Below are positions 5,430 to 20,098 of a stretch of DNA of 38,149 nucleotides, piece by piece. Numbering within the stretch: the first letter of the stretch is position 1; every line of letters begins with the position of its first letter. The position numbers and the translations under genes are program-made. Source of the stretch: an uncultured Woeseiaceae bacterium (GTDB lineage: Bacteria > Pseudomonadota > Gammaproteobacteria > Steroidobacterales > Woeseiaceae); the NCBI GenBank assembly GCA_947259285.1, contig CAMYMR010000039.1, forward strand, positions 1 through 38,149. Direction: 5' to 3'. The notes under the pieces were generated by a model. The model saw only the letters and a list, made by a program, of their open reading frames with translations. It ran no database searches and was not told the DNA's origin.

Positions 5430-5509
5430 CCGAGGCAAGCAAAATTCTGTAGCACGACTGCCGGAGACCCGAGGCAAGCAAAATTCTGTAGCACGACTGC
5501 CGGAGACCC
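5430..5509. repeat. Tandem 39-bp direct repeat (two copies)
   Basis: A 39-nt unit occurs twice head to tail (5430-5468 and 5469-5507), and identity continues for two more bases to 5509. It sits in the 215-nt gap between the rhomboid stop and the ygfK start, about 100 nt upstream of that ATG. The copies are identical, so the duplication is recent or maintained. No clear sigma-70 promoter could be aligned in the gap. Confidence 0.9.
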
Positions 5510-5608: not shown

Positions 5609-8600
5609 ATGTCCGAGTTGTTCCGACCAATCTCAACCGAACGACTCACGGCCTGGCTGTTCCAGGAATTGGAGCGCCACGACTCCATCCTCGGGATTCC
5701 GCGCCAGCAGTTTTTTGTTCCGCGCGAAGACTCGCCTATGCGAGGCGAAATCTATGGGCATCGGCTGCATACGCCCATAGGCCCTGCCGCGGGCCCTCAT
5801 ACACAGATGGCGCAGAATATCGTGGCGGCCTGGTTGTGCGGCGCGCGGTACATCGAATTAAAAACCGTACAAACCCTTGACGAATTGGACGTCAGCAAAC
5901 CCTGCATCGACATGGAGGACGAGGGCTACAACGTCGAATGGTCGCAGGAGCTGAAAGTCTTCGAGTCTTTCGATGAGTACCTTCGGGCCTGGGTACTGAT
6001 TCATGCGCTGCATCACCACCTGGGTTTCCCAGGAGACAATCCGGGAATCGTCTTCAATCTAAGCGTTGGATACGACCTCGACGGCATCCGGCAGCCGAAC
6101 ATGCAATGGTTCCTCGACCAGATGCAGGATTGCTCGGAGTACAAGGAGTCCATCGTCGAGCAGGTCGCAAGATATTTTCCTGCGGTGCGGGACCTGGAAA
6201 TACCGGATCGCCTTTCCGACAACGTCACCTTGTCGACCATGCACGGCTGTCCCCCTGATGAGATCGAAGCCATCAGTACTTACCTGCTTCGCGAACGGCG
6301 CTTGCACACGCTGGTGAAGTGCAATCCAACACTGCTCGGTCCCGAGCGTTTGCGGACTATCCTGAATGACGACCTCAAATACGTGGATGTCGTCGTACCG
6401 GACGTGGCATTCGATCACGATCTGAAGTATTCGGCGGCTGTCCCGATGTTTCGCAACCTCAAGGCCGTTGCAGAGCAGCATGAACTCGAATTTGGCGTGA
6501 AGCTTTCCAACACGCTGGAGGTCGAGAACGTCCGTCCCGTGTTCGACACGGCTGAGAAGATGAGCTATCTCTCGGGGCGTCCATTGCACGCCATAACCGT
6601 CAGCCTGGCGCATGAACTGGTGGAGGAGTTTGCTGGCGAATTACCGGTTTCTTTTTCGGCGGGCGCAAACGCGTTCAATCTGCCTGCATTGCTGGCTGCC
6701 GGTATGTCAACAGTGACGATCTGTTCGGATCTTCTCAAAACCGGCGGATACCTGCGACTGCTCGACTGTATCGATTCCATCGACAGGGCATTTGCGAAGG
6801 CGGGGGCCGAGAGCATCGACGAATTCACTGTAAGATCGGCTGAAACCAGCGATCGACCTTTGCCGCGCATCACAGCGGCGAGACTGAACCTGCAGCGCTA
6901 CGCGAACGAAGTCCGTGCCGATGCTAACTACAGGAAAGACCGGCTCGACACGTCACACACGAAAACCTCGCGGCCACTCGAGTATTTCGACTGTATCAAA
7001 GCGCCCTGCGTGGACGAGTGCCCGCTGCATCAAAAGGTGCCGATGTACATGGACGCGGTACGCAGAGGCTCAATCAGTCGGGCCCAGGACATCGTCAAAG
7101 CCGACAATCCGCTCCCCTGCATACTGGGCCGAATTTGTGACCATTTGTGTGAGCGGGTCTGCGTTCGTACCCACATCGACGAGCCGCTCGCAATCCGGGA
7201 CATCAAACGCTTCATCATGGATCGGCCGGTAGAATCGGATAGCATCGAGGTGCCGGTGCAATCCGGCAAGAAGGTCGCGGTCATCGGCTCGGGTCCCGGC
7301 GGTATATCGGCGGCGACCGAACTCGCCCGCGGTGGATTTGCCGTGGAAATTTTCGAGCAGCATGCCTACCCCGGCGGCATGGTTGGCGGCGCAGTTCCGG
7401 AGTACAGGCTCCCGCAGGCCGTGTTCGACCAGGATTTCGCACCGCTGCGGAAACTGGGCGTCGAAGTCCACTATAAGCAGCGCGTTGGGCGGGATGTCCG
7501 GCTTTCGCAGCTGCGCGAAGCCGGTTTCGATAACATCATCATCATGGTTGGGGCGCAGCGCAGCAAGACCCTGTCCCTCGCCAACGAAGACTGTGACGGC
7601 GTCGTCGACGCGCTGCATTTTCTGCGCCGTTCCCGGGAGGATCGCGCGCTTGGGCTAGGCGGCCGAGTTGGCGTTATTGGCGCCGGCGATACCGCAATGG
7701 ACTGTGCGCGCGTTGCCAGACGTCAGAACAGCCGCCGGGTGACCTTGATCTATCGCCGCACTGTCGATCAGATGCCGGCCGATCGGGAAGAAGTTGCGCA
7801 ACTCATCGACGAAGGCGTCGAGGTGCTCGAACTGGCCAAGCCGCAAGGGCTTGTCGTCGAAGACGGCAAACTGCGTGCACTGCTGTGCCGGCGCATGAAG
7901 TATGCAGGCGACCGCGATGCCACAGGCCGTAAGGTTCCCCACGAAGTACCCAACTCAGACTTCGAGGTGCCGTTGGACACCCTCATTTTGGCGATCAGCC
8001 AGCACGCTGTTCTCGACTTCTTCGGCCGGGAACCCATCGAGGTTAATGATCGCGGGTACATCAATGTCGACCCGGTGACGTTCGAGACGTCCGTGCCAGG
8101 CGTCTATGCGGGCGGTGATGTCGCCAATGATGGCCCCTCCTCCATCGTCAAGGCGGCTGCCGCCGGAAAAACGATCGCCGACGCGATCATGCGTGGGCAT
8201 CGCGTCAGCAGCGACTCGGTCGAGCCGGCGCGACGTGACAAAGCGATGCTGCTGCGACACCGTGGTCAGAGGCAGCCTCGGGTCAATGCGCCACAGCGAC
8301 CCCGCGGTGACAGGGACAACTTTGAGGAAGTGGTCCTCACCTACTCCGAGCGACAGGCACGAGAAGAAGCCGGACGGTGCCTGGACTGCGATACGTTCTG
8401 CAGTATCTGTGCCGGCGTGTGTCCGAATATTGCGCTGCAGACATACGAGACAGAGCCTTTTGAGGTTCGCCTGCCGAGAATCAGCCTCGTTGACAGCGAG
8501 ATCCGTATCGATCCGGGGAACACCTATCGTGTTGCGCAGCCATTCCAGATCGCCGTGCTCACGGACTTTTGTAATGAATGTGGCAATTGCACGACATTCT

Positions 8601-8989
8601 GCCCGACGTCTGGTCATCCGTATCGCGACAAGCCCCGCCTCTACCTTGACCGTGAGGATTTCGAATCACAGCAAGACAATGCCTTCATGGTATTCAAAGA
8701 CAACGATACCTGGGCTATAGACGCACGATTGCAGGGAGCCGATCACCGTGTCGAATTGAACGGAAAACTGGACTACGCCGGACCCGCCTTCACGGCAAGC
8801 ATCGATCCGCAAACGTTCAAAGTGGAGTCCGTGAAAGCAACGGGAGTCGACGGCTCCTACTCACTGGAGGCTTGTGCATCCATGTTCGTGTTGCTAAACG
8901 GGTTGCGGAAATCGCTACCCTTCCTGCCAGCAGCGCGTCGACAAGCGGCAACGAAGGGACGAATCGAGCACCCGGGATACGAGGAATAA
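5609..8989 (+). CDS. ygfK: YgfK-type Fe-S/flavin oxidoreductase (putative selenate reductase subunit family)
   Basis: 1126 residues; E. coli YgfK is about 1030. The N-terminal third is a dihydroorotate/dihydropyrimidine-dehydrogenase-like barrel (motifs GPAAGPHTQMAQN, MHGCPP). A cysteine cluster near residues 461-500 (C..C..C and CILGRICDHLCERVC) resembles the glutamate-synthase small-subunit Fe-S region. It is followed by two dinucleotide-binding sites (GSGPGG near 560, GAGDTA near 690). The C-terminus carries two further Cys groups (CLDCDTFCSICAGVCP near 924, CNECGNCTTFCP near 988). Start: ATG 5609 with GGGAGG at 5594-5599; an upstream TTG extension has no homology. First gene of the operon, 1 nt before ssnA. 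In E. coli clusters it accompanies the molybdenum hydroxylase and is thought to deliver electrons to a purine-like substrate; the exact reaction is not set by sequence. Confidence 0.93.
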   Translation: MSELFRPISTERLTAWLFQELERHDSILGIPRQQFFVPREDSPMRGEIYGHRLHTPIGPAAGPHTQMAQNIVAAWLCGARYIELKTVQTLDELDVSKPCIDMEDEGYNVEWSQELKVFESFDEYLRAWVLIHALHHHLGFPGDNPGIVFNLSVGYDLDGIRQPNMQWFLDQMQDCSEYKESIVEQVARYFPAVRDLEIPDRLSDNVTLSTMHGCPPDEIEAISTYLLRERRLHTLVKCNPTLLGPERLRTILNDDLKYVDVVVPDVAFDHDLKYSAAVPMFRNLKAVAEQHELEFGVKLSNTLEVENVRPVFDTAEKMSYLSGRPLHAITVSLAHELVEEFAGELPVSFSAGANAFNLPALLAAGMSTVTICSDLLKTGGYLRLLDCIDSIDRAFAKAGAESIDEFTVRSAETSDRPLPRITAARLNLQRYANEVRADANYRKDRLDTSHTKTSRPLEYFDCIKAPCVDECPLHQKVPMYMDAVRRGSISRAQDIVKADNPLPCILGRICDHLCERVCVRTHIDEPLAIRDIKRFIMDRPVESDSIEVPVQSGKKVAVIGSGPGGISAATELARGGFAVEIFEQHAYPGGMVGGAVPEYRLPQAVFDQDFAPLRKLGVEVHYKQRVGRDVRLSQLREAGFDNIIIMVGAQRSKTLSLANEDCDGVVDALHFLRRSREDRALGLGGRVGVIGAGDTAMDCARVARRQNSRRVTLIYRRTVDQMPADREEVAQLIDEGVEVLELAKPQGLVVEDGKLRALLCRRMKYAGDRDATGRKVPHEVPNSDFEVPLDTLILAISQHAVLDFFGREPIEVNDRGYINVDPVTFETSVPGVYAGGDVANDGPSSIVKAAAAGKTIADAIMRGHRVSSDSVEPARRDKAMLLRHRGQRQPRVNAPQRPRGDRDNFEEVVLTYSERQAREEAGRCLDCDTFCSICAGVCPNIALQTYETEPFEVRLPRISLVDSEIRIDPGNTYRVAQPFQIAVLTDFCNECGNCTTFCPTSGHPYRDKPRLYLDREDFESQQDNAFMVFKDNDTWAIDARLQGADHRVELNGKLDYAGPAFTASIDPQTFKVESVKATGVDGSYSLEACASMFVLLNGLRKSLPFLPAARRQAATKGRIEHPGYEE

Positions 8990-8990
8990 A

Positions 8991-10313
8991 ATGAGCTCGC
9001 TACTGATCACCAATGGCCATCTAGTGACCCTCGATAAAGAAGATCGCTTTATCCAGGGCGGCAGCATCTACGTCGTCGGTGATCAGATCATGGATATCGG
9101 GGACTTCGCCCCGGGCACCTATCAAGCTGACCGAACGATCGACGCGCACGGCAAGCTCGTCATGCCGGGACTGATCAACGCTCATCACCATCTCTATTCG
9201 ACCTTCGCCCGCGGATTTACGCCGCCCGGCCCACCGGCAACAAATTTCGAGGAAAACCTCAGAAACCTGTGGTGGAAACTGGACGCCGCACTTGATACCG
9301 ACGACGTGTATTTCTCCGCTTTGCTGGCCATCATGCATGCGGCTCGGGCCGGATGCACAACCATCATCGATCATCACGCCTCGCCGTCGTGTTGGGAGGG
9401 AAGCCTGGATCAGGTCGAGCGTGCGTTCCGGGATGTCGGTTTGAGCGGCTGCCTCTGTTACGAGGTCTCCGATCGAAACGTGGCAGGGGAAGGTATCGAG
9501 GAGAACGAACGCTACATCCGCAAATGCCGTGACTCGGACGACAAGCAGATGGCGGGCATGTTCGGTCTGCACGCGCTGATGACGCTGGGTACCCGGACAC
9601 TCGATCGCTGCGCCGATATCGGTAATGCACTCGACGCAGGATTTCACGTGCACGCGGCCGAAGACGAAATCGACGTCAAGATCACAATGGACCGCTATGG
9701 ACGACGCATCATGGACCGGTTCCTGGACTTCGCCATTCCCGGCCCCAAGACGATATTCGTGCATGGGGTCCATTTCGGCCGCCGCGAGCTGGACCTGCTG
9801 CACTCCACCGACTCCATGCTCGTCAACGCCCCGGAATCGAACATGAACAACGGGCTCAGCGTTGCGCCGATCCTGGACATGCTCAAACACGGCGTCACCG
9901 TCGGTGTCGGTACCGACGGCATGTCCTCGCACCTGATATCCCAGGCGCGCGCCATGTATCTGCACCAGCGCACCTATCACCGCGATCCAACGGTGGCGTT
10001 CTCCGAGGCCTGCGAGATTCTCCTGAAAAACAACCGCAGCATCTGCGACCGCCTGTTCGAGGAGCCCCGCGGCGTTCTTGCCGGTGGTCACCTCGCCGAC
10101 ATCATCGTTTCAGACTACGTGCCGTTCACACCATTGAATGCGGAGACATTCTACGGACACCTGCTGTTCGGACTGAGCTTTGCCCGGGTTCATACGACGA
10201 TCGCGCGAGGTCGGGTGATCGTCGAGGATGGCCAACTTGTGCACCTGGATGAGGATGAGATCCGTGCGCGTTGCGCCGAACGCGTACCTAGAATTTGGAA
10301 TAGAATTAAGTAA
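8991..10313 (+). CDS. ssnA: SsnA-type amidohydrolase / aminohydrolase
   Basis: 440 residues, matching the usual length of about 440. This is an amidohydrolase-superfamily metal enzyme related to guanine/cytosine deaminases and chlorohydrolases. Metal ligands are visible: NAHHHLYS near residues 62-69, HVHAAEDE near 219, HGVHF near 258 and GTDGMSS near 307. The start is 1 nt after the ygfK stop, and the ribosome site GAGGAA lies in the last codons of ygfK, so the two are translationally coupled. The ygfK-ssnA-ygfM-xdhD order equals that of E. coli. The likely role is deamination or hydrolysis of a heterocycle in the purine-type pathway; the substrate is not proven for the family. Confidence 0.92.
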   Translation: MSSLLITNGHLVTLDKEDRFIQGGSIYVVGDQIMDIGDFAPGTYQADRTIDAHGKLVMPGLINAHHHLYSTFARGFTPPGPPATNFEENLRNLWWKLDAALDTDDVYFSALLAIMHAARAGCTTIIDHHASPSCWEGSLDQVERAFRDVGLSGCLCYEVSDRNVAGEGIEENERYIRKCRDSDDKQMAGMFGLHALMTLGTRTLDRCADIGNALDAGFHVHAAEDEIDVKITMDRYGRRIMDRFLDFAIPGPKTIFVHGVHFGRRELDLLHSTDSMLVNAPESNMNNGLSVAPILDMLKHGVTVGVGTDGMSSHLISQARAMYLHQRTYHRDPTVAFSEACEILLKNNRSICDRLFEEPRGVLAGGHLADIIVSDYVPFTPLNAETFYGHLLFGLSFARVHTTIARGRVIVEDGQLVHLDEDEIRARCAERVPRIWNRIK

Positions 10314-10336
10314 TAAGTTATTGTAAAGGAAGGTTT

Positions 10337-11221
10337 TTGGTCAGCTACTGGAAACACTACCACACGCCCGAAACGGTCGAGGAAGCGATCGCCGCCTTGC
10401 GCGGATACGATGGCCGCGCTCGCGTCATCGGTGGTGGAACGGACCTGCTCGTGGAGACACGGCGAGGTCTGCGGCGGCCCTTCGAGGCCATCGTGGACGC
10501 GTCACGCATCGCCGGCCTGAATACCATCGAGCGGGACCCGCAGCACATTGTGATCGGCTGCGGCGTGACTCACACCCAGATCGTCAACGATCCGAATATC
10601 CAGCGTCACGGCGCCTGCCTGTCCGAAAGCTGCGGCGTCATCGGCGGGCCTCAGGTACGCAATGCAGGCACGCTCGCGGGCAACGTGGCCCACGCGCTGC
10701 CCGCGGGCGACGGCAGCATTGGCCTGCTGGCACTGGCTGGTGAAGTCGAAATCACCAGCACCGCCGGTCGTCGCTGGGTGGCGGCCAAAGACACCTTCGT
10801 TGGCCCGGGCAAGAGTGTGATCGACCGGCACCGGGAGGTGCTGACACGCTTACGCTTCAAGCCCACCGGAACAGGCGAAGGGTCGGCGTTTCATCGCGTG
10901 ATGCGGCCGCAGGGCCTTTGCTTGCCCATCATATCGATGGCGGCACGACTGACTGTCGATGGCGACCGCATCGTGGCGGCAAACGTCAGCATGGGACCAG
11001 TCGGCCCCGTTCCGTGGTTTGCCGAACCAGTGGCGCAGGCGCTGATCGGCGGGCCCGCAACGGATGCGCAATACGAAAAAGCAGTCGACGTCGCGCTTTC
11101 GAACGTTACGCTGCGAACCAGCAAGTACCGAGCCACCGAGGAATACCGCAGGACGATGGTCCGGACCTATCTCCCGATCATCCTGGCCACGGCCGCCGAA
11201 CGCGCCGGAGCAAAGCGATGA
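10337..11221 (+). CDS. ygfM: FAD-binding subunit of molybdenum hydroxylase (YgfM/CoxM type)
   Basis: 294 residues. It carries the FAD subunit of a xanthine-dehydrogenase-type enzyme and passes electrons from the Fe-S clusters to the acceptor. Two FAD-binding signatures are visible: RVIGGGTDLL near residues 30-40 and GGPQVRNAGTLAGN near 103-116, followed by ALPAGD. The C-terminal CO-dehydrogenase flavoprotein domain is present. Start: TTG at 10337, placed behind AAGGAAGG (10327-10333); no in-frame ATG fits the family start. Its stop overlaps the next start by 4 nt (ATGA at 11218-11221), so it is coupled to the Fe-S subunit. Confidence 0.92.
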   Translation: MVSYWKHYHTPETVEEAIAALRGYDGRARVIGGGTDLLVETRRGLRRPFEAIVDASRIAGLNTIERDPQHIVIGCGVTHTQIVNDPNIQRHGACLSESCGVIGGPQVRNAGTLAGNVAHALPAGDGSIGLLALAGEVEITSTAGRRWVAAKDTFVGPGKSVIDRHREVLTRLRFKPTGTGEGSAFHRVMRPQGLCLPIISMAARLTVDGDRIVAANVSMGPVGPVPWFAEPVAQALIGGPATDAQYEKAVDVALSNVTLRTSKYRATEEYRRTMVRTYLPIILATAAERAGAKR

Positions 11222-11832
11222 GCAGGCTGAAGATGACGGTAAATGGCGTTGCGATCGACATCGACGTACCGGAATCGCGGTACCTGTCGGAGGTACTGCG
11301 CGAGGATCTGCGGCTGACCGGGACCAAGATCGGGTGTGCCGAGGCTGAGTGCGGTATCTGCACGGTACTGGTGGATGGCATTGCGGTCGTCAGCTGCGTC
11401 TTCCCCGCATTCAAGGCGCAGGGCGCGAGGGTGGAGACCATCGAAGGGCTGTCAAACAACGGAAGACTGCATGCATTGCAGCAGGCATTCCTGGATCACG
11501 GCGCAGTGCAATGCGGTATCTGCACACCCGGTTTAATAATGACTGCCAAGGGGCTGTTGGACACCAAGAATGCGGCGGGCGAAGCGGTGACCGAGAACGA
11601 TATCCGGACTGCGCTTAAAGATTCGTACTGCCGCTGTACGGGCTATCAGAGTGTGATCAATGCAGTTCTCCAGGCGTCTGGTGAAGAGGTTGCACCGTAT
11701 ATTCCGGAAACCGGAACGCCCGGCACGGCTGTCGGCAAGCCGCGACCCAACCCGAATGCGTGCCCCATGCCCGGATACTTTCAATCGACACCGCGGCTGC
11801 GAAGCGCCTCGACGGCGTGCACGCAGTGCTGA
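11218..11832 (+). CDS. xdhD: [2Fe-2S] portion of molybdenum hydroxylase, 5' part of a broken xdhD-like fusion
   Basis: 204 residues as read. Residues 1-160 hold both [2Fe-2S] clusters: ferredoxin-like C40, C45, C48, C60 and the helical-domain C99, C102, C138, C140. After a linker, the frame enters what is normally the N-terminus of the Mo-cofactor domain (AVGKPRPNPNA, residues 175-181). At about 11758 homology stops, and the remaining 23 residues are unrelated read-through to TGA 11830. The next part of the Mo domain continues in another frame from 11760. E. coli XdhD is one polypeptide with this order, so I read 11218-13919 as one gene interrupted by a deletion of about 80 nt (not a multiple of 3). 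In E. coli XdhD the cluster cysteines are lost; here they are all present. A natural split into two subunits is the alternative, but the second part then lacks its first strand and a ribosome site. Confidence 0.8.
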   Translation: MSRLKMTVNGVAIDIDVPESRYLSEVLREDLRLTGTKIGCAEAECGICTVLVDGIAVVSCVFPAFKAQGARVETIEGLSNNGRLHALQQAFLDHGAVQCGICTPGLIMTAKGLLDTKNAAGEAVTENDIRTALKDSYCRCTGYQSVINAVLQASGEEVAPYIPETGTPGTAVGKPRPNPNACPMPGYFQSTPRLRSASTACTQC

Positions 11833-13919
11833 CGCACGAGGATATTCCCGGCCGCAATGCACACGGCGTAGTGAGCGTCGACTGGCCCGTGCTATGCGGT
11901 CGCAAAGTTCGCTACGTGGGCGATGCGATCGCGATCGTGGCGGCGGACAGCGATGAAATCGCGGCGGCAGCACTGCAGCTGATCGACGTCCGGTACGAGG
12001 AACTCCCGGCGGTCACCGACGCCATCGACGCCCTGAAACCCGACGCGACGCTCGTTCACGAGGAACGTCCGGACGGCAACCTCCTGAAGCACATCAAGGT
12101 CAGGAGAGGCGATCTCGATCGCGGCTTCGCCAACGCCGACGTGATTGTCGATCAAACCTACAGGACGCCCACGACGGAACATTTGTTCCTCGAGCCCGAA
12201 TGTTCGATCGCCGTGCCCGCCGACTACGATCCGGCGAACTTCGGCGGCCGCCGCGATGGCCACGCGGTACGAGGCGACACAGCGAAACACGACAAGACGA
12301 CGATTTACGTCGGCAGCCAGATTCCCTACTCGGACAGGGACCAGGTTGCCGCCACGCTGGGCGTCGCACCCGATGCGGTACGGGTCGTGGCCACGCTCAT
12401 GGGCGGAGGATTCGGCGGTAAAGAGGACATCGCGGGGCAGATCCACGCGGCGTTGCTGGCCGAGGCAACTCAGCAACCCGTCAAGATGCTGTACTCACGA
12501 CAGGAAAGCCTTATGGTGCATCCGAAGCGGCATGCCACCGTCATTCGCATGCGTACCGGCGCCACACGCGAGGGCAAACTGACGGCCCTGGAGGCAACCC
12601 TGTACGGTGATGGCGGTGCCTACGCCAGTCTGAGTGAAAAGGTGCTGACCCGCGCCACGACCCACGCGACCGGGCCATATGAGGTACCCAACGCCAAGGT
12701 CGACTGTTTTGCCATGTACACCAACAACGTTCCGTGCGGCGCATTTCGGGGTTTCGGCGTCACGCAGAGCTGCTTCGCGGTGGAGAGCAACATGGATATG
12801 CTGGCCGAAAAGCTCGAACTCGATGCGATTGAATTTCGTCGCATGAACGCGCTCGATGTCGGATCGGAGACCGCGACCGGTCAGGTCATGCGGGAAAGCG
12901 TTGGCCTTAATGCCTGTATCGATAAAGTCGATCACGACATGCGCAGCGGGGATTTCCGCTGGAGCTGGGCCGAAGGGCATCGACAATTCGCGTGGGGCCT
13001 GGCCCTGGGTTACAAGAATACCGGCCTTGGCGGCGGCGCGCCGGACAAGGCGACGGCCGAAGTCGAGGCCTGGCAGGATTCGGAAAGCGGACTGATGGCC
13101 GAGGTGAGAATCTCCTCGGCGGAAATGGGCCAGGGCCTGCCGGGCGTGCTCGCGGTTTGTGCGGCAGAAGAACTGGGCATCCCGCCGGAGCGGGTGAACG
13201 TTCTATTGGGCGACACCGATTACTGTCCGGATGGCGGACCGACGACAGCCAGCCGCCAAACTTATGTCAGCGGCAATGCGGTGCGTCTCGCCGCCAGACG
13301 CGTGGCGGAGCAACTGCCGACGACGGATTCTCCGCTGAGAATCAAGGCACAGCACGAATACTGGGCACCGAAAACGATGCCACTTGGTAAGGGCGGAGAC
13401 ATGCATGTGGCATTCGGCTTCTGCGCGCAAGCAGCGCTCTGCGAGATAGACATGCATACCGGCGAGGTCAGCGTTCAGAAGATCATCGCCGCGCACGATG
13501 TTGGCCGCGCCATTAACCCGCTGACACTCGAGGGGCAAATCGAAGGCGGCATCGTGATGTGCATCGGCTACACGCTGAGCGAACACTACATCCAGGAAGA
13601 CGGAAAACCTTGGACGACGGTGATGGCTCGCTACAAGGCACCGAGCATCACGCACGCGCCCCGGATTATTTCTCATATTGTTGAGCACAGCACTTCTACC
13701 GGCCCGTTTGGCGCGAAAGGCGTGGGCGAACTGCCGAGTATCCCGACCAGCCCGGCCATCACCAATGCGATCTATCGCGCTACCGGCGTACGAGTCCGCA
13801 GCCTGCCAGTGGACCAGGATGAATTGCTACGAGCGATCAAAAAGGGCGCCACCGATATCGAGCTCGCCTGGGGCGACCGGAAGCCCATCCCCAACATTGA
13901 TCTCGGAGGGGAACAGTGA
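11760..13919 (+). CDS. xdhD: Molybdopterin-binding portion of molybdenum hydroxylase, 3' part of the broken xdhD-like gene
   Basis: 719 residues if begun at GTG 11760, which has no ribosome site. It starts abruptly at PHARILSID, about 25 residues into the a/b hammerhead domain. Core features are intact: MGGGFGGKEDI (cofactor-binding), GAFRGFG with the substrate-site arginine, DGGPTTASRQTY, AAHDVGRAINP, and the catalytic glutamate in GAKGVGELP near the C-terminus. Around 13300-13330 the usual stretch of about 55-60 residues between the NAVRLAAR helix and the Y.AP segment is nearly absent. Known role of the family: hydroxylation of purine-like rings. The 4-nt overlap with the next gene (GTG 13916/TGA 13919) keeps it in the operon. 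Activity is doubtful unless the junction is an assembly error. Confidence 0.82.
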   Translation: MPHARILSIDTAAAKRLDGVHAVLTHEDIPGRNAHGVVSVDWPVLCGRKVRYVGDAIAIVAADSDEIAAAALQLIDVRYEELPAVTDAIDALKPDATLVHEERPDGNLLKHIKVRRGDLDRGFANADVIVDQTYRTPTTEHLFLEPECSIAVPADYDPANFGGRRDGHAVRGDTAKHDKTTIYVGSQIPYSDRDQVAATLGVAPDAVRVVATLMGGGFGGKEDIAGQIHAALLAEATQQPVKMLYSRQESLMVHPKRHATVIRMRTGATREGKLTALEATLYGDGGAYASLSEKVLTRATTHATGPYEVPNAKVDCFAMYTNNVPCGAFRGFGVTQSCFAVESNMDMLAEKLELDAIEFRRMNALDVGSETATGQVMRESVGLNACIDKVDHDMRSGDFRWSWAEGHRQFAWGLALGYKNTGLGGGAPDKATAEVEAWQDSESGLMAEVRISSAEMGQGLPGVLAVCAAEELGIPPERVNVLLGDTDYCPDGGPTTASRQTYVSGNAVRLAARRVAEQLPTTDSPLRIKAQHEYWAPKTMPLGKGGDMHVAFGFCAQAALCEIDMHTGEVSVQKIIAAHDVGRAINPLTLEGQIEGGIVMCIGYTLSEHYIQEDGKPWTTVMARYKAPSITHAPRIISHIVEHSTSTGPFGAKGVGELPSIPTSPAITNAIYRATGVRVRSLPVDQDELLRAIKKGATDIELAWGDRKPIPNIDLGGEQ

Positions 13920-15385
13920 ACCTGATACCCGAAATTCGCGAAGAAGTACGGCGAAAGAGCATCAAACGCGCCCGCGCGCAACGGATTCTCTTGCCGACGT
14001 TCGCGCAACTCAAGGACCCGACATTGGCGCCGGATGGGATCAAATCCCGGTTGAAAGAGGTCGGTCTCTGGGACATCGACCCGGCCAACCTTTTCCGCAT
14101 AACATGGAAGAACGAACCTGTCGAACACGGCGGCGGATTCGGAGAAGGCAACTGGATCGAGTTCCCACCCACTCTGACCGGTATCGACGCCACTATTGTC
14201 GGTATCGTCGGCCAGTGGTTTCCGACGGGCGCTCACAAAGTCGGGGCAGCCTACGGCTGCCTGGTGCCACGCCTCGTGACCGGGGCGTTCGACCCCGATA
14301 CGCAGAAGGCCGTATGGCCGTCCACCGGCAATTATTGCCGAGGCGGTGCTTATGACTGCGCCCTGCTCTCCTGCCCGGCCGTCGCCATTCTGCCCGAGGG
14401 CATGAGCCGAGAGCGCTTCGAATGGCTGCGCGCGATCGGCACCGATGAAATCATCGCCACGCCCGGTACCGAGTCGAACGTCAAGGAGATCTACGACCGC
14501 TGCTGGGCGCTCCGCAAAGAGCGCGGCGACGCTGTCGTCGTTTTCAACCAGTTCGAGGAATTCGGCAACGCCATCTGGCACTACCAGATGACCGGTTCGA
14601 TCATCGAGGAAATATTCCAGAATCACTACTCGACCGGGCGACGCCTTTCGGGCTACGTCAGTGCGACGGGTTCTGCCGGGACGATAGCGGCGGGCGACTA
14701 CCTTCGTACCCGGTATCCGGACATTCGCGTGGTTGCGACCGAAGCTTTGCAGTGCCCGACACTCCTGCAGTTCGGATTCGGTGAGCACCGGATAGAAGGC
14801 ATCGGCGACAAGCACGTCCCGTGGATTCACAACGTGCGCAATACCAATCTCGTGGCCGCCGTCGATGACGAGCAGACCATGCAGCTCATGCGCCTGTTCA
14901 GTGAGGACGACGGGCACGCCTGCCTTCGCCGCGAGGGCGTCGACGAGGACCTGTTGCAGAACCTGAGTGAGATTGGCATTTCCGGCCTTTGTAACCTCGT
15001 TGCCAGCATCAAGGCCGCACGTTATTACGATATGGATAGTCGCGATGTGATCTTCACGCCGATCACAGACTCGATGGAGCTGTATGCGTCACGCAGACAG
15101 GAAATGAAGGACGCGCACGGTCCGTACAACGCTCACCTGGCAGACCAGCACTACGGCCGCTACCTGCTGGGGACCACGGCGGACAACGTCCGCGAACTCA
15201 CCTATGCCGACCAGAAAGCGCTGCACAACTTCAAGTACTTCACGTGGGTGGAACAACAGGGACGTACATCCGATGAATTGCGGCAGCTCTGGGATGCTGA
15301 CTACTGGAAGGCGGTTTTCTCGCAGGACGTTGTGGACGAGTGGGACCGTCTGATCGATGCGTTCAACAACGATGGAGACATCTGA
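13916..15385 (+). CDS. PLP-dependent lyase/thiolase-like enzyme (cysteine-synthase fold)
   Basis: 489 residues, fold-type II PLP enzyme. The Schiff-base lysine is K108 in FPTGAHKVGAAYG. A substrate loop reads STGNYCRGGA, and the phosphate-cupping loop is ATGSAGT near residue 252. It occupies the position expected for E. coli ygeX (diaminopropionate ammonia-lyase, about 400 residues) but does not resemble YgeX. It is longer, the lysine sits in TGAHK, and the C-terminal region rich in aromatic residues (HYGRYLLGTTADN) is not found in YgeX. Start: GTG 13916 behind GGAGGGG, overlapping the xdhD stop. The stop overlaps the ygeY start by 1 nt. Inferred role: breaking down the amino acid released by the pathway. 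Confidence 0.85.
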   Translation: MNLIPEIREEVRRKSIKRARAQRILLPTFAQLKDPTLAPDGIKSRLKEVGLWDIDPANLFRITWKNEPVEHGGGFGEGNWIEFPPTLTGIDATIVGIVGQWFPTGAHKVGAAYGCLVPRLVTGAFDPDTQKAVWPSTGNYCRGGAYDCALLSCPAVAILPEGMSRERFEWLRAIGTDEIIATPGTESNVKEIYDRCWALRKERGDAVVVFNQFEEFGNAIWHYQMTGSIIEEIFQNHYSTGRRLSGYVSATGSAGTIAAGDYLRTRYPDIRVVATEALQCPTLLQFGFGEHRIEGIGDKHVPWIHNVRNTNLVAAVDDEQTMQLMRLFSEDDGHACLRREGVDEDLLQNLSEIGISGLCNLVASIKAARYYDMDSRDVIFTPITDSMELYASRRQEMKDAHGPYNAHLADQHYGRYLLGTTADNVRELTYADQKALHNFKYFTWVEQQGRTSDELRQLWDADYWKAVFSQDVVDEWDRLIDAFNNDGDI

Positions 15386-16578
15386 TGAGCAGCACTTATT
15401 ACGAGCAGGCAATGGGTGTCAAAGCCGACCTCGTCAATTTCATGCAGGACATCATTCGCATACCGTCATTAAGCTCGGACGAAGGCGCCGTCGTGGATCG
15501 CATCCGCGAAGAAATGCTGAAGATTGGCTATGACGAGATCACGGTCGATCCAATGGGCAACATTCTCGGCCGCATTGGATCCGGGCCTCGCATTATCGCG
15601 TTCGACGGCCATTGCGACATCGTCGACGTGGGCGATCCGGATCTGTGGGAGCGTGACCCGTATTCGGCGGAAATCGAAGATGGCATCCTCTACGGGCGTG
15701 GTGCGAGCGACATGAAAGGCGGTGTTGCGTCCAGCGTCTACGCCGGCGCGTTGCTGAAGAAACGTGGCGTGCCCGATAACGTGACCTTCTATGCCACCGC
15801 GACTATTCAGGAAGAAGACTGTGACGGGCTTTGCTGGCAGTACATCATCAACGAAGGCGGCCTGCGCCCCGAGCTCGTCGTTATAACCGAACCCACCAGC
15901 CTCCGCATTTACCGCGGCCATCGTGGGCGCATGGAGATGGAGGTGCATACATCCGGCATTTCCTGTCATGGCTCCGCGCCCGAGCGCGGCGACAACGCTG
16001 TTTACAAGATGGCCGGCATCATCGCCGATATCGAGAAACTCAATGAACGACTCGCGCCGCGCGATCCGCTCGGCAAGGGCACGGTGACGATCAGTGAGAT
16101 TCGCTCGACCTCTCCGAGCCTCTGTGCCGTCGCGGATGGCTGCACGATACACCTCGATCGAAGGCTGACGATTGGTGAGACCGAAGACACCTCGGTTGCC
16201 GAGATCGAGGCGCTGCCGTCGGTCAAGGCCGCCAACGCGACCGTCACCGTGCTGGAATATGAGGTGCCAAGCTACACCGGTCTCAGGTACCCGACTCGCA
16301 AGTACTACCCGACGTGGGAGACCAAGGAAGACGAGCCACCCGTGATAGCCGCAATGGCCGCCTTTAGAAAGACCTTCAACAAGGCGCCGGAGATCGGATA
16401 CTGGACGTTCAGCACCAATGGCGTCGCCACGGCCGGAATGCATCACATTCCAACGATCGGCTTTGGTCCGGGCCACGAACGCTTTGCTCATGCGCCAAAC
16501 GAGCAAACCGAAATAGAGCACCTGGTCAGCGCAACCGCGTTCTATTCAGCGCTGGTCGATGAATTCGCCAGGGAATGA
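15385..16578 (+). CDS. ygeY: YgeY-type M20 family metallopeptidase/deacylase
   Basis: 397 residues (E. coli YgeY about 403). Zinc-dependent hydrolase of the M20/ArgE/DapE group. Metal and catalytic motifs are in place: FDGHCDIVDVGD near 72-83, GRGASDMKGG near 110-119, QEEDCDG near 148-154, EPT near 175 and a C-terminal FGPGHERFAHAPNE with the last histidine ligand. Start ATG 15385 overlaps the upstream stop (TGATG), with GGAG just before. In current models of the E. coli-type purine pathway this enzyme removes a ureido/carbamoyl group from an intermediate; that comes from the family literature, not from the sequence. Confidence 0.92.
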   Translation: MSSTYYEQAMGVKADLVNFMQDIIRIPSLSSDEGAVVDRIREEMLKIGYDEITVDPMGNILGRIGSGPRIIAFDGHCDIVDVGDPDLWERDPYSAEIEDGILYGRGASDMKGGVASSVYAGALLKKRGVPDNVTFYATATIQEEDCDGLCWQYIINEGGLRPELVVITEPTSLRIYRGHRGRMEMEVHTSGISCHGSAPERGDNAVYKMAGIIADIEKLNERLAPRDPLGKGTVTISEIRSTSPSLCAVADGCTIHLDRRLTIGETEDTSVAEIEALPSVKAANATVTVLEYEVPSYTGLRYPTRKYYPTWETKEDEPPVIAAMAAFRKTFNKAPEIGYWTFSTNGVATAGMHHIPTIGFGPGHERFAHAPNEQTEIEHLVSATAFYSALVDEFARE

Positions 16579-16597
16579 TTACAGGAGACCCATCAAA

Positions 16598-17599
16598 GTG
16601 ACTCGCACAGCAAAACCGGTTCCTGACCATATGAAAGGCCGCGACTGGCTAATGACACAGGACTGGTCGGATCAGGAGATTGAACTGGCACTCGAGACGG
16701 CAGATCAGTTGAAGGACGAATTCAAGGCCGGAGTGCCCACGCTGCACCTCGCGCACAAGACGGCCTTCCTCATCTTCTTCGACAAATCGACGCGCACGCG
16801 TAATTCGTTCGAGGCGGGAATGACACAGCTGGGCGGCCACGCGCATTTCATCGATGCGGAGACATCCCAAATCGCGCACGGCGAAAGCCCCAAGGACATG
16901 GGCACCATTCTCTCCAGCTACGGGCACGGCATCATGATTCGACATGACCTGGTGCCGGGCGAAGGACAGAGTTACATGCGCGAGGTTGCGCGCCATGCGT
17001 CGGTGCCGGTCGTCAACATGCAGTGCGACGTAGACCACCCCTGCCAGAACCTAGCTGACTTAATGACGATTCGAGAAGAATATGGTAAGGACCTGAACAA
17101 TATAAAAATTGCTGTGTCCTGGGCCTATGCACCCAGCTACGTCAAACCGATGTCGGTCCCGCAGGGCCTGATCATGCTGATGACGCGTTTCGGCATGAAC
17201 GTGACGCTGGCCCACCCGCCCGAGTATCAACTGATGGACGAGCCGTTGCGGCTTGCCCGCGAAAATGCCGAGCGGTCGGGCGGCAACTTCGAGGTGGTCG
17301 ACAATATGGAAGACGCCTTCGCCGACGCCGATATCGTTTATCCGAAAAGCTGGGGCGTTGAGTCTCTGTTCAGCAATCCGGAAGAAGCGATGCGAATTGC
17401 ACAACAGTATCGTCACTGGATTTGCGACGAGGCAATGATGGCGCGTGCCAAGGAGCGAGCCATTTACATGCACTGCCTGCCGGCGGATCGCGGCGCCGAA
17501 GTAACCGATGCTGTTATCGACGGCCCGCAATCACGCGTCTATCCGGAAGCCGAAAACCGCCTGCACACGGCGAAGGCCCTGATGGCACTGACAATGTAG
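16598..17599 (+). CDS. ygeW: YgeW-type carbamoyltransferase homologue
   Basis: 333 residues. Member of the aspartate/ornithine carbamoyltransferase superfamily. The carbamoyl-phosphate site STRTR is at residues 64-68, HPCQ at 147-150, and HCLP at 292-295. The second-substrate region differs from true ornithine transcarbamylase, as in YgeW. Start: GTG 16598 behind AGGAG (16583-16587); an upstream ATG at 16559 would run back into ygeY. Followed 14 nt later by carbamate kinase, an arrangement seen when a carbamoyltransferase runs backwards, phosphorolysing a ureido compound to carbamoyl phosphate for ATP synthesis. E. coli YgeW is about 396 residues, so this one has a shorter N-terminus. Confidence 0.92.
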   Translation: MTRTAKPVPDHMKGRDWLMTQDWSDQEIELALETADQLKDEFKAGVPTLHLAHKTAFLIFFDKSTRTRNSFEAGMTQLGGHAHFIDAETSQIAHGESPKDMGTILSSYGHGIMIRHDLVPGEGQSYMREVARHASVPVVNMQCDVDHPCQNLADLMTIREEYGKDLNNIKIAVSWAYAPSYVKPMSVPQGLIMLMTRFGMNVTLAHPPEYQLMDEPLRLARENAERSGGNFEVVDNMEDAFADADIVYPKSWGVESLFSNPEEAMRIAQQYRHWICDEAMMARAKERAIYMHCLPADRGAEVTDAVIDGPQSRVYPEAENRLHTAKALMALTM

Positions 17600-17613
17600 G
17601 GGCGGATACACAC

Positions 17614-18582
17614 ATGACTACTCATGCCAAGAGACGGACCGAGGCCCCCCTGGCCGTCATCGCGATTGGCGGCAATTCACTGATCAAGGACCATGAACAC
17701 ATGGACGTACTGGATCAGTACCGGGCAGCTGGCGAGACCAGTCACTATATTGTCGACGTCGTAAAACACGGCTACCGGGTATTGGTGACCCACGGCAACG
17801 GACCTCAAGTTGGATTTGTCCTGTTGCGATCCGAGCTGGCCCGAGACGTCATTCACCAGGTACCGCTGGCCAACTGTGTCGCCGATACGCAGGGGTCGAT
17901 CGGGATGCAAATCGCGCAGAGCCTGCAAAACGAGTTCTTTCGCCAGGGTATCGACCAGCAGGTCATCGCGCTGGTAACCCAGTCGGTGGTCGACGAGGCC
18001 GATCCAAGTTTCAGCGACCCCAGCAAACCCATCGGCCCTTTCATGAGCGAGGCAGAGGCGCGTCAGCACGAGCGAGATGACGGCTGGGCGGTGGCGGAAG
18101 ATGCGGGCCGCGGATGGCGTCGACTGGTCGCGTCGCCGACACCCATCAAGATCATCGAGTTGCCGACGATTCAGACGCTGCTGGACGGCGGCACGCTGGT
18201 CATTGCCGCCGGCGGTGGTGGCGTGCCGGTCGTCTTCAAACCGGATGGCACCCTGCGGCCCCGTCCCGCGGTCATCGACAAGGACGCCGCGTCCTGCCTG
18301 CTGGCCTGCGAACTCGGGGCCTCCAAGTTCATTATCTCCACCGATGTCGACAAAGTCGCCCTTAACTTCGGAACACCGCAGCAGGTCGACATCGACCATA
18401 TGACCGCAGCCGAATGTCGCCGTTACCTTGAGGCAGGACATTTCGCACCGGGCAGTATGCTGCCGAAGATCGAGAGCGCGCTGAGGTTTCTCGAGCAAGG
18501 CGGTGAAGAAGTCATCATCACACAGCCGCACCAGCTGTCCGAGGCTGTGCAGGGAATCCATGGCACGCATATCGTGCCCTGA
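17614..18582 (+). CDS. yqeA: Carbamate kinase (YqeA type)
   Basis: 322 residues. Converts carbamoyl phosphate and ADP to ATP, CO2 and ammonia. The amino-acid-kinase fold is visible: AIGGNSL near residues 18-24, THGNGPQVG near 68, AAGGGGVPVV near 200, IDKDAAS near 222, TDVDKVAL near 245 and a C-terminal APGSMLPKIE signature near 282. Start: ATG 17614 after a GGGGCGGA stretch, 14 nt from ygeW. It is the energy-yielding step expected for the operon. Confidence 0.95.
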   Translation: MTTHAKRRTEAPLAVIAIGGNSLIKDHEHMDVLDQYRAAGETSHYIVDVVKHGYRVLVTHGNGPQVGFVLLRSELARDVIHQVPLANCVADTQGSIGMQIAQSLQNEFFRQGIDQQVIALVTQSVVDEADPSFSDPSKPIGPFMSEAEARQHERDDGWAVAEDAGRGWRRLVASPTPIKIIELPTIQTLLDGGTLVIAAGGGGVPVVFKPDGTLRPRPAVIDKDAASCLLACELGASKFIISTDVDKVALNFGTPQQVDIDHMTAAECRRYLEAGHFAPGSMLPKIESALRFLEQGGEEVIITQPHQLSEAVQGIHGTHIVP

Positions 18583-18594
18583 GGGAGTCAACGC

Positions 18595-19772
18595 ATGAAG
18601 GGCTATCGTTGTTTTTCCTGCGGTGAAACGCAGGCCGCAAAATACACCGGGTGCCTGTGCCCATCTTGTGGTGGCAATCTCGATATCGCCTATGACTACG
18701 CGGCGGTCGCTCGAAACATCGAGCGACTGGGTATCGATCGCGCCAGGTACATTTTCACCTTCGCGCCGTTTCTCCCGGTCAAGACGCCGGGCAAGCATTT
18801 CGCGTTACGAATAGGAGCAACGCCGTTATACCCGGCGAATCGGCTCGGCGCTCTGTTGGGACTTCGGAATCTCTTCCTGAAGGACGATACGGTGAATCCG
18901 AGCGCGTCCAGCAAGGATCGCGCCAGCGCTATCGTTGTTCGCAGGGCCATGGACATCGGCGCGGACATCGTTTCCGTCGCGAGGTTCCCGAGAGTGCGCC
19001 TGCGGCGAAGCTCGCGCAGGCTTTATCATTTGGCGCCACGGTTCTCGCAGTCCGCGGCAACTATGATGACGCGTTTGATCTCTGCCGGGCCGCCTCCGAT
19101 GAATTCGGCTGGTTTAATCGCAGCACCGGCTATAACCCGTTTACTCGCGAAGGCAAGAAAGTCTGCGCATACGAAATCTGGGAGTCGCTGGATGGACGGG
19201 TGCCGGATCGCATCGTGGTACCAACCGGGGACGGCAACCTGCTGAGCGGCATGTGGAAAGGCTGGCGGGATCTGAAAGGAATTGGACTGATCGATCGAAT
19301 GCCGAAGATCGACTGTGCTCAGTCGGAGGGCAGCGCTGCAATCAGTAATTCGGTTCGTAAAATTCGCCAAAGTAGCGCGGCCGAAGTGGACTGGTCGAAC
19401 ATATCTGTAGACCAGGTCGAGGCAAACACCATTGCTGATTCGATCTCCGTCAACCGGCCGCGGGATGGACTGGCTGCCGTGCAGGCGATTATCGAGTCGG
19501 GGGGTCAGACGGTTACGCTTGCCGAAGAGGAGATTCTTGCCGCAATACCGGAAATGGCAAGGCGTTCCGGTGTGTTTCCCGAACCGGCAGCGGCAGCGCC
19601 CTGGGCCGCCGTAAAGAAGATGGTACGGGACAAGATGATCGATGCCGACGAACTCGTTGTCTGTCTCGTATCGGGCAGTGGCCTGAAGGACATCGGCAGT
19701 GCCCGGCAGATCGCGCCTGAACCGCTGGTTATCGATCCGACGATCGACGCGGTCCGGGCCGCCCTCAAATAA
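18595..19772 (+). pseudogene. Threonine-synthase-like PLP enzyme, interrupted by a deletion/frameshift
   Basis: Two frames together give a zinc-ribbon threonine-synthase-like protein. Frame 1 (18595 to about 18980) has C6-x2-C9 and C22-x2-C25, IGATPLY, and the PLP lysine K107 in SSKDRAS, ending at GADIVS. Frame 2 (about 18981 to 19772) resumes at PESAPAAKLAQ and runs through GNYDDAFDLC, NPFTREGKK, VVPTGDGN and VSGSGLKD to the natural C-terminus. Missing between them is the STGNAAAALAG-type segment, about 25 residues, which holds part of the PLP/substrate site. The loss shifts the frame, so translation from 18595 ends in 216 residues with a foreign tail. Starts 12 nt after yqeA with GGGAG, last gene of the operon. 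A sequencing or assembly error is the alternative. Confidence 0.85.
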
Positions 19773-19955: not shown

Positions 19956-20031
<76 letters not shown>

Positions 20032-20041
20032 ACTACCTGTG

Positions 20042-20098
20042 GAAAAGGGGACATTCTGCATTTTGCGTAATACGCAAAATGCAGAATGTCCCCTTTTC
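20042..20098. repeat. Perfect 28-bp inverted repeat with 1-nt centre, downstream of tRNA-Ala
   Basis: Arms 20042-20069 and 20071-20098 are exact reverse complements around A20070. The outer arm begins GAAAAGGGGACATTC and ends with the complementary CCCCTTTTC. It could act as a bidirectional terminator for the tRNA and for the small minus-strand gene ending at 20101. The symmetry and the GGGGACA core also resemble REP-type palindromes spread by RAYT transposases in gammaproteobacteria. Only one copy lies in the window. Confidence 0.9.

Follow-up and report, generated by a model that had tools for sequence, protein, structure and literature searches.

The window analysed here is the complete 38,149-nt contig CAMYMR010000039.1 (contig C39 of genome G000) of an uncultured Woeseiaceae bacterium (assembly GCA_947259285.1; 3.2 Mb in 166 contigs, 84.8% complete). 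Between positions 5609 and 19772 it carries an operon that is best read as a newly described variant of a known pathway operon in a marine-sediment generalist host. With a probability of roughly two in three, we take it to be a selenium-independent form of the operon for reductive breakdown of uric acid, carried by a facultative anaerobe of Woeseiaceae type. In E. coli, according to the accessible text of Li et al. 2025 (PMC12507026), XdhD-YgfM converts urate to yanthine, YgfK and SsnA carry yanthine on to ureidomethyl-hydantoin, HyuA opens this compound, YgeW and YgeY each remove one ureido group, and YgeX turns diaminopropionate into pyruvate. Percudani (PMC12990295) regards as unsettled both which ureido group is cleaved first and where the pathway came from. 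The reactions and the substrate proposed below would follow by analogy with the E. coli and C. difficile enzymes.

The operon

Protein families were assigned with NCBIfam and Pfam profiles, and scores are quoted as bits/curated cut-off. Locus L047 served as the reference for calling deletions. One gene without an E. coli counterpart in the cluster, which encodes a pyridoxal phosphate (PLP) enzyme, was given the name palpA here. The features are as follows.

5609..8989, + strand: ygfK, iron-sulfur (Fe-S) flavoprotein reductase that is predicted to act on yanthine (2,8-dioxopurine) (TIGR03315, 880/835)
8991..10313, + strand: ssnA, amidohydrolase, predicted to open the ring of dihydro-yanthine (PRK07203, 492/444)
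10337..11221, + strand: flavin adenine dinucleotide (FAD) subunit of the molybdoenzyme, in the ygfM position (PF00941, PF03450)
11218..11760, + strand: Fe-S (5') part of a fused Fe-S/molybdenum (Mo) gene (PF00111, PF01799), with the open reading frame (ORF) extending out of frame as far as 11832
11760, + strand: 85-nt deletion in the alignment to L047, with a frameshift and loss of the start of the Mo domain
11760..13919, + strand: Mo (3') part of the fused gene, in the xdhD position, predicted urate-to-yanthine reductase (PF01315, PF02738, PF20256)
13916..15385, + strand: palpA, 489-aa cysteine-synthase-like PLP enzyme, candidate replacement for YgeX (PF00291)
15385..16578, + strand: ygeY, M20-family hydrolase of ureido/acyl amino acid (PRK13004, 556/321)
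16559..17599, + strand: short YgeW-type transcarbamylase (38% identity to E. coli YgeW)
17614..18582, + strand: carbamate kinase, yqeA-type (PRK12352, 376/266)
18595..18983, + strand: 5' part of a threonine-synthase-like PLP gene (PF00291, weak)
18983..18984, + strand: 67-nt deletion in the alignment to L047, with loss of the STGNAGSS loop region and a shifted frame
18984..19772, + strand: 3' part of the threonine-synthase-like gene, listed as ORF 19200-19772 (PF00291, 80 bits)
5430..5509, no strand: 39-bp sequence exactly duplicated in tandem (2.1 copies), in the leader just before ygfK

All the genes lie on the + strand, in the order ygfK, ssnA, FAD subunit, Fe-S and Mo parts, palpA, ygeY, transcarbamylase, carbamate kinase and threonine-synthase-like gene. 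In the 5' half, ygfK and ssnA are 1 nt apart and ssnA and the FAD gene 23 nt, with overlaps of 4 nt between FAD and Fe-S and again between Mo and palpA. In the 3' half palpA overlaps ygeY by 1 nt and ygeY overlaps the transcarbamylase gene by 20 nt, followed by gaps of 14 and 12 nt, the 14-nt gap assuming that the carbamate kinase starts at the ATG at 17614. The initial annotation had described nine cistrons on one strand. The strand and most of the families stood up to closer analysis, but its separate Fe-S and Mo cistrons are one gene, and what it listed last is part of a threonine-synthase-like gene that the 67-nt deletion has split. It had overlooked both gene breaks as well as the extra PLP genes as possible substitutes.

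Two sets of genomes were used for comparison. A search for YgfK at E 1e-100 across the order (296 genomes) gave 23 positives, namely the genome of the window, 21 further members of its genus and a single genome from a different family. The 22 same-genus genomes, own genome included, form the YgfK-positive set, and 14 of the 20 YgfK-negative genomes listed were used as the control set. Several of the 22 (e.g., G189, G214, G224, G256, and G272) have YgfK at the end of a contig, and the operon is only partly visible there. The second set comprises the loci of the best 80 of 418 palpA relatives in a named-genome collection, 31 of them gammaproteobacterial (L060-L090) and 49 from other bacteria.

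All matched genes lie on one strand and in the same order in 31 of the 31 gammaproteobacterial loci; all ten blocks are found in 15 of these, and the remaining loci are partial. A comparison of ygfK neighbourhoods, which the initial annotation had called for, was made on 20 fetched stretches: ygfK adjoins ssnA in 16 of them, and nine show all blocks in the same order, the incomplete stretches being cut by contig ends or having less content. The operon is real, and its arrangement is conserved beyond chance. The possibility of a misbinned contig was considered and is not favoured, given the presence of YgfK in 21 other genomes of the genus and the same block order in nine of the 20 stretches. 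Among named sequences the operon is best matched, at 90%, by Woeseiaceae metagenome-assembled genomes (MAGs), other matches being filed under Chromatiales, Lysobacterales or just Gammaproteobacteria, and the host is probably a Woeseiaceae-type gammaproteobacterium. A scan of the sequence for promoters and terminators returned fewer sites than shuffled sequence did and nothing usable.

YgfK, SsnA and YgeY

Three enzymes pass curated models of the E. coli families. YgfK is 35% identical to the E. coli protein over 1094 columns, and 18 cysteine positions are common to window-type YgfK and E. coli in all 15 aligned rows. SsnA is 33% identical to that of E. coli K-12 and falls just below the cut-off of a second model, TIGR03314 (452.6 vs 455.5). 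Its residues H65, H67, H219, H221, H258, and D309 are unchanged in 33 of 33 rows, E. coli included. YgeY is 54% identical to its E. coli counterpart, and H76, D109, E144, and H369 are unchanged in 36 of 36 rows.

The molybdoenzyme and selenium

The best NCBIfam family of the FAD subunit is XdhB, under its cut-off, and the YgfM model TIGR03312 gives 23/241.5. The Fe-S and Mo parts form a single uninterrupted frame in all 28 loci (of L060-L091) that match both. Because of this shared frame the molybdoenzyme has the fused build of E. coli XdhD, and a three-subunit molybdenum hydroxylase with separate Fe-S and Mo genes was ruled out on the same ground. The intact fused protein of the relative L060 (928 aa) was used for scoring. 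Its best family is Se_dep_XDH (TIGR03311, 786/830), and the XdhD model TIGR03313 gives 301/1102; the molybdoenzyme of another locus, L125, passes Se_dep_XDH at 964. The window Mo enzyme is 29% identical to XdhD of E. coli K-12. Position and fused architecture agree with an XdhD-YgfM urate reductase, though the family models do not. In a tree that carries a long-branch warning, the window type of Mo enzyme groups with enzymes of Verrucomicrobiota and Planctomycetota; under the same warning, it stands apart from E. coli XdhA/XdhD and from the xanthine dehydrogenase (XDH) of its own genome.

Several family names, TIGR03315 (putative selenate reductase YgfK), TIGR03314 (selenium metabolism protein SsnA), TIGR03526, and TIGR03311, would suit an operon for selenium or selenate metabolism. 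Against such a function, SelD is over its cut-off in only one of 14 genomes (a subset, with the own genome in it, of the YgfK-positive set of 22); the other 13, among them the own genome at 56 bits, reach 50-77 bits vs 125. Moreover, the reactions of the E. coli enzymes are now known (accessible text of PMC12507026). A selenate reductase or selenium operon was rejected on the SelD counts, and we consider it highly improbable. Molybdenum cofactor synthesis is represented by moaA, which is over its cut-off in 21 of the 22 genomes, own included, and XdhC/CoxI maturation by PF02625 in 14 of the 14 genomes scored for SelD. The initial annotation had named the absence of cofactor synthesis genes or of any ring-opening hydrolase as evidence that would overturn it; both are present, the hydrolase being SsnA.

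Transcarbamylase and carbamate kinase

The transcarbamylase keeps the motifs STRTR, SQIAHGE, HPxQ, DIVYPKSW, and HCLPAD together with a proline-rich loop, WAYAPSYVKPMSVPQG. Such a loop is named as a criterion of the knotted transcarbamylases in the accessible text of PMC4581275, according to which the choice of second substrate depends on extended 120s and 240s loops. The window enzyme has neither the C-terminal extension nor the 240s insert of YgeW, and its 120s loop is not extended, being 11 residues shorter than in YgeW. The transcarbamylase next to palpA comes closer to E. coli YgeW (45-64% identity) in eight loci of Planctomycetota, Kiritimatiellota or Myxococcota that entered a transcarbamylase tree, which carries a long-branch warning. 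Among Planctomycetota and Kiritimatiellota palpA adjoins YgeW-type genes, with 59-64% identity to E. coli YgeW, or YgeY-type genes, and the enzyme of L125, one of the former, is over the YgeW cut-offs. The carbamate kinase of the window is 44% identical to E. coli YqeA.

PLP enzymes in the place of YgeX

No YgeX was found at E 1e-20 in any of the 23 YgfK-positive genomes, the E. coli control being positive, and no YgeX match was found in the 80 palpA loci. The place of YgeX seems to be filled by palpA together with the threonine-synthase-like gene, a substitution that we propose here. In palpA, Lys108 of FPTGAHKVGA is unchanged in 33 of 33 rows, and from the family we take it to be the PLP lysine. 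The structural model (predicted local distance difference test score, pLDDT, 86.7; predicted template modelling score, pTM, 0.90) places the fold nearest to O-acetylserine sulfhydrylase and cystathionine beta-synthase, a fold that leaves the function undecided. By BLAST, the threonine-synthase-like protein matches YgeX weakly (22% over 196 aa, 5e-9).

The two genes may divide the work in another way: the threonine-synthase-like enzyme could be the diaminopropionate lyase, with palpA acting elsewhere, for example in a beta-elimination on ureido-alanine. The weak YgeX match belongs to the former and not to palpA, and the two PLP genes often co-occur, the threonine-synthase-like match being present in 20 of the 49 non-gammaproteobacterial palpA loci, some of these matches being weak. 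Yet palpA stands with YgeY, which would produce diaminopropionate, in 24 of those loci, 14 of them without other pathway genes. We regard this division of labour as a serious possibility, though not as the favoured one, and retain palpA as the candidate lyase.

The oxidative urate route in the same genome

Most of an oxidative purine/urate cluster is encoded on another contig of the genome (G000:C69, L167, 3119-12021). Both the small and the large XDH subunits are over their cut-offs (625/467 and 1226/850), and the contig also encodes XdhC/CoxI, a PF06181 urate oxidase, PuuE (512/425), OHCU decarboxylase, allantoicase, and ureidoglycolate lyase. Most steps of urate production and of oxidative urate use are represented there, allantoinase included; hydroxyisourate hydrolase was not identified on this contig. 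Full-length PF06181 occurs in 22 of the 22 YgfK-positive same-genus genomes and in 9 of the 14 YgfK-negative ones (Fisher p 0.005, relatedness ignored). Woeseiaceae are described in the accessible text of PMC8443593 as facultative anaerobes that use oxygen, nitrite, fumarate, and hydrogenogenic fermentation. An oxic/anoxic pairing of the two urate routes would fit this lifestyle.

Distribution of palpA beyond Woeseiaceae

Within the fetched stretches, the 49 non-gammaproteobacterial palpA loci hold at least two other pathway families in 19 cases, YgeY only in 14, one other family in nine, and none in seven; these counts admit matches down to about 23-30% identity, some of which are possibly paralogues. 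A locus of Kiritimatiellia (L108) joins ssnA, an XdhD-clade enzyme, palpA, ygeY, a short transcarbamylase, a carbamate kinase, and a threonine-synthase-like gene. At its edge this stretch also shows a YgfK of half length and an incomplete match to a hydantoinase. In a Phycisphaerales locus (L116), a GltD-like protein followed by a PreA-like DHO_dh/Fer4 protein is reminiscent of the UacX variant.

The SsnA clusters reported in the accessible text of PMC12507026 belong to Pseudomonadota, Bacillota, Chloroflexota, Actinomycetota, Spirochaetota, and Elusimicrobiota. That list of phyla does not include Planctomycetota, Kiritimatiellota, Verrucomicrobiota, or Myxococcota. As described in the same text, that survey took any PF00291 neighbour for YgeX, so it would not separate palpA from YgeX.

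Some further arrangements were seen around palpA. In a Kiritimatiellae locus (L092), ssnA (69%), an XdhD-clade enzyme, an MTHFR_2-family gene, and palpA stand in series. At 9926-12691 of L116, palpA and transcarbamylase matches fall inside one overlapping 921-aa ORF call, on the strand opposite to the palpA match, and the two genes may be adjacent or fused. Selected neighbours of palpA in Verrucomicrobiota, scanned with Pfam, include a glycosyltransferase, Hsp20, a chemotaxis receptor, a kinase, methylenetetrahydrofolate reductase, and a sulfate permease, with no further pathway gene among them.

Evidence weighing against the assignment

A number of observations count against reductive uric-acid degradation. 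The L060 Mo enzyme is below both the XdhD and the selenium-dependent XDH cut-offs, the window type lies outside the E. coli XdhD clade, and Glu606 of XdhD is unmatched in the alignment, the position falling in a variable loop. The transcarbamylase is under both YgeW cut-offs (259/453 and 241/500), and in structure searches its model comes closest to the transcarbamylases for ornithine and acetylornithine, a fold that leaves the function undecided; the structure that we take to be of YgeW type comes only at rank 34. No BLAST match was found between palpA and YgeX or any other protein of the E. coli cluster. Its relatives also occur away from the pathway: among the 49 loci seven have palpA alone and 14 have palpA with YgeY only, and plasmid homologues lie in other surroundings.

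Two of these plasmid homologues, in L058 (Bosea vaviloviae, 46%) and L059 (Rhizobium sp. NXC24, 43%), stand beside M20 hydrolases and transporters. The surroundings on the Bosea plasmid include methylenetetrahydrofolate reductase and aminomethyltransferase. The palpA family is wider than uricolysis.

Partners that the pathway would require are missing as well. The operon has no hyuA, and no D-hydantoinase was found in the 84.8% complete own genome, where the best match (204/393) is a dihydroorotase (PRK09236, 669/535). An unlinked D-hydantoinase over the cut-off is present in 19 of the 22 relatives; it is also present in 9 of the 14 YgfK-negative genomes and hence is not tied to the operon (Fisher p 0.09). 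In one relative (G056) its neighbours are PreT-like, PreA (PRK08318, 698/335), and an NCS1 permease, and because of these neighbours the locus looks pyrimidine-type. The hydantoinase was therefore rejected as an operon partner, being nearly as frequent in genomes without YgfK. No NCS2 urate/xanthine permease was found in the own genome, and two of the 22 relatives are positive.

The same observations bear on another explanation, in which the operon would serve to break down some other N-heterocycle or ureido compound (another oxopurine, a methylated purine or a hydantoin) by the same chemistry with changed first and ureido-cleaving enzymes. The parts that set specificity are those that diverge most, with a Mo enzyme of a non-XdhD clade and a transcarbamylase without the extended loops; HyuA and the urate permease are missing, and the genome already has an oxidative urate pathway. 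We nevertheless find another substrate unlikely, since YgfK, SsnA (PRK07203), and YgeY are over curated cut-offs with their conserved residues kept, and since a true YgeW replaces the short enzyme beside palpA in other phyla, suggesting the same substrate class.

Finally, two genes of the operon are broken in the window. In 23 of 25 loci the threonine-synthase-like gene is open over 380 aa or more; of the remaining two, one stops at a contig end and the other is 360 aa long. Outside the two deletions the operon aligns to L047 with small indels only, nearly all compensated, and no repeats were seen by eye at either junction. The window copy is either broken by decay or misassembled, and the operon in this MAG itself may be non-functional. 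Decay would mean that this organism has no working pathway, whatever its relatives have. Both frame-breaking deletions strike required regions, the start of the Mo domain and the PLP loop of the threonine-synthase-like enzyme; the clean junctions and the near collinearity of the rest are also consistent with decay. On the other side, assembly errors are possible in MAG contigs, and the eight other genes are open. Decay of the window copy is a substantial possibility, falling not far short of an even chance.

Proposed pathway

In the pathway that we propose, the XdhD-position molybdoenzyme and its FAD subunit would convert urate to yanthine, which YgfK would reduce and SsnA would open to ureidomethyl-hydantoin. 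For opening the hydantoin, the weakest step, a D-hydantoinase may be recruited from the pyrimidine locus, which is unlinked. The short YgeW-type transcarbamylase, with phosphate, would split off one ureido group, the carbamate kinase turning carbamoyl phosphate into ATP, and YgeY would take off the second. The resulting diaminopropionate may be converted to pyruvate and ammonia by palpA, aided or partly replaced by the threonine-synthase-like enzyme, instead of by YgeX. The reductive route would be used without oxygen and the oxidative pathway of the same genome with oxygen, as we suggest here.

Percudani (PMC12990295) asks whether the anaerobic urate route is an old innovation later adopted by gut bacteria or arose recently as an adaptation to the gut, and favours the second view. 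The operons of marine-sediment Woeseiaceae and the loci of Planctomycetota, Kiritimatiellota, Verrucomicrobiota, and Myxococcota are tree material for this question of origin. A broader view, to which we hold only tentatively, is that reductive uricolysis is not mainly a gut invention. A parallel and largely selenium-free form would exist in the abundant Woeseiaceae of marine sediments and several other environmental phyla, with palpA and a threonine-synthase-like partner for YgeX, a loop-trimmed knotted transcarbamylase for YgeW, and an oxic/anoxic switch with the uricase pathway. If the substitutes work, the pathway gains a lyase and a transcarbamylase type, selenium-free parts become available for uricolytic probiotics, and sand and mud without oxygen would be a likely sink for purine nitrogen. 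With both the oxidative and the reductive urate genes, a single genome would hold an oxygen switch.

For Woeseia and Woeseiaceae, no link to uric acid was found in the accessible texts of PMC8289736, PMC9960530, and PMC6917582, and PMC12175321 (Woeseiaceae) makes no mention of purine, urate or allantoin. A literature search returned nothing joining Woeseiaceae with urate, ygeX and ygfK with marine sediment, or anaerobic uric acid degradation with the stem Planctomycet.

Other features of the window

A tRNA-Ala(CGC) lies at 19956-20031, directly before a perfect inverted repeat of about 26 bp, seen by eye at 20042-20098 (GAAAAGGGGACATTCTGCATTTTGCG and its complement, with a 5-nt loop). An array of a 72-bp tandem repeat (7.1 copies, 87% match) occupies 34339-34931 within a 938-aa ORF at 32605-35421. 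The ORFs at 438-1061, 1207-1527, and 2641-3033 have no Pfam match.

Comparison with known systems

The initial annotation had likened the operon to the E. coli-type anaerobic urate set. This is indeed the closest match, but the set is not reproduced, YgeX, a linked HyuA, and an NCS2 permease being missing. The absence of hyuA, ygeX, yqeB, and yqeC from the window, which it had noted, was confirmed, and the genome-wide search that it had proposed for hyuA, selD, and a purine permease recovered neither HyuA nor NCS2, with SelD below its cut-off. Its suggestion of a widened range holds in that the host is an environmental proteobacterium, but SsnA clusters are already reported from Chloroflexota, Actinomycetota, and others (accessible text of PMC12507026). 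Placing the host outside fermentative organisms is doubtful in view of the hydrogenogenic fermentation of Woeseiaceae.

Compared with the E. coli reductive uric-acid cluster, YgfK, SsnA, YgeY, and carbamate kinase are alike by family, the order ygfK-ssnA-FAD-fused Fe-S/Mo is that of E. coli ygfK-ssnA-ygfM-xdhD, and a YgeW-type transcarbamylase adjoins the carbamate kinase in both. E. coli has two operons whereas the window has one, with two other PLP enzymes for YgeX and without hyuA, urate permease, yqeB, yqeC, and ygeV. Its Mo enzyme is of another clade, its transcarbamylase is short, and SelD is over the cut-off in one of 14 genomes. The C. difficile-type variant (UacX, UacY; accessible text of PMC12507026) has SsnA, YgeY, and a molybdoenzyme in common with the window operon, which lacks the UacX and UacY families and has YgfK and the transcarbamylase/carbamate kinase pair.

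The single components compare in a similar way. The selenium-dependent xanthine dehydrogenase (TIGR03311) is the top-scoring family for the L060 fused protein, which stays below the cut-off of 830, and SelD is over its own cut-off in one of 14 genomes. The transcarbamylase shares the carbamoyl phosphate-binding motifs, proline-rich loop, SQIAHGE, and DIVYPKSW with the knotted carbamoyltransferase YgeW (TIGR03316/PRK07200), but is loop-trimmed (346 aa vs 396) and scores under both models. The palpA protein resembles O-acetylserine sulfhydrylase and cystathionine beta-synthase (PLP fold type II) in its fold and PLP-lysine region, and differs from them in length (489 aa vs about 310), in an identity of about 20-26%, and in long conserved N- and C-terminal parts.

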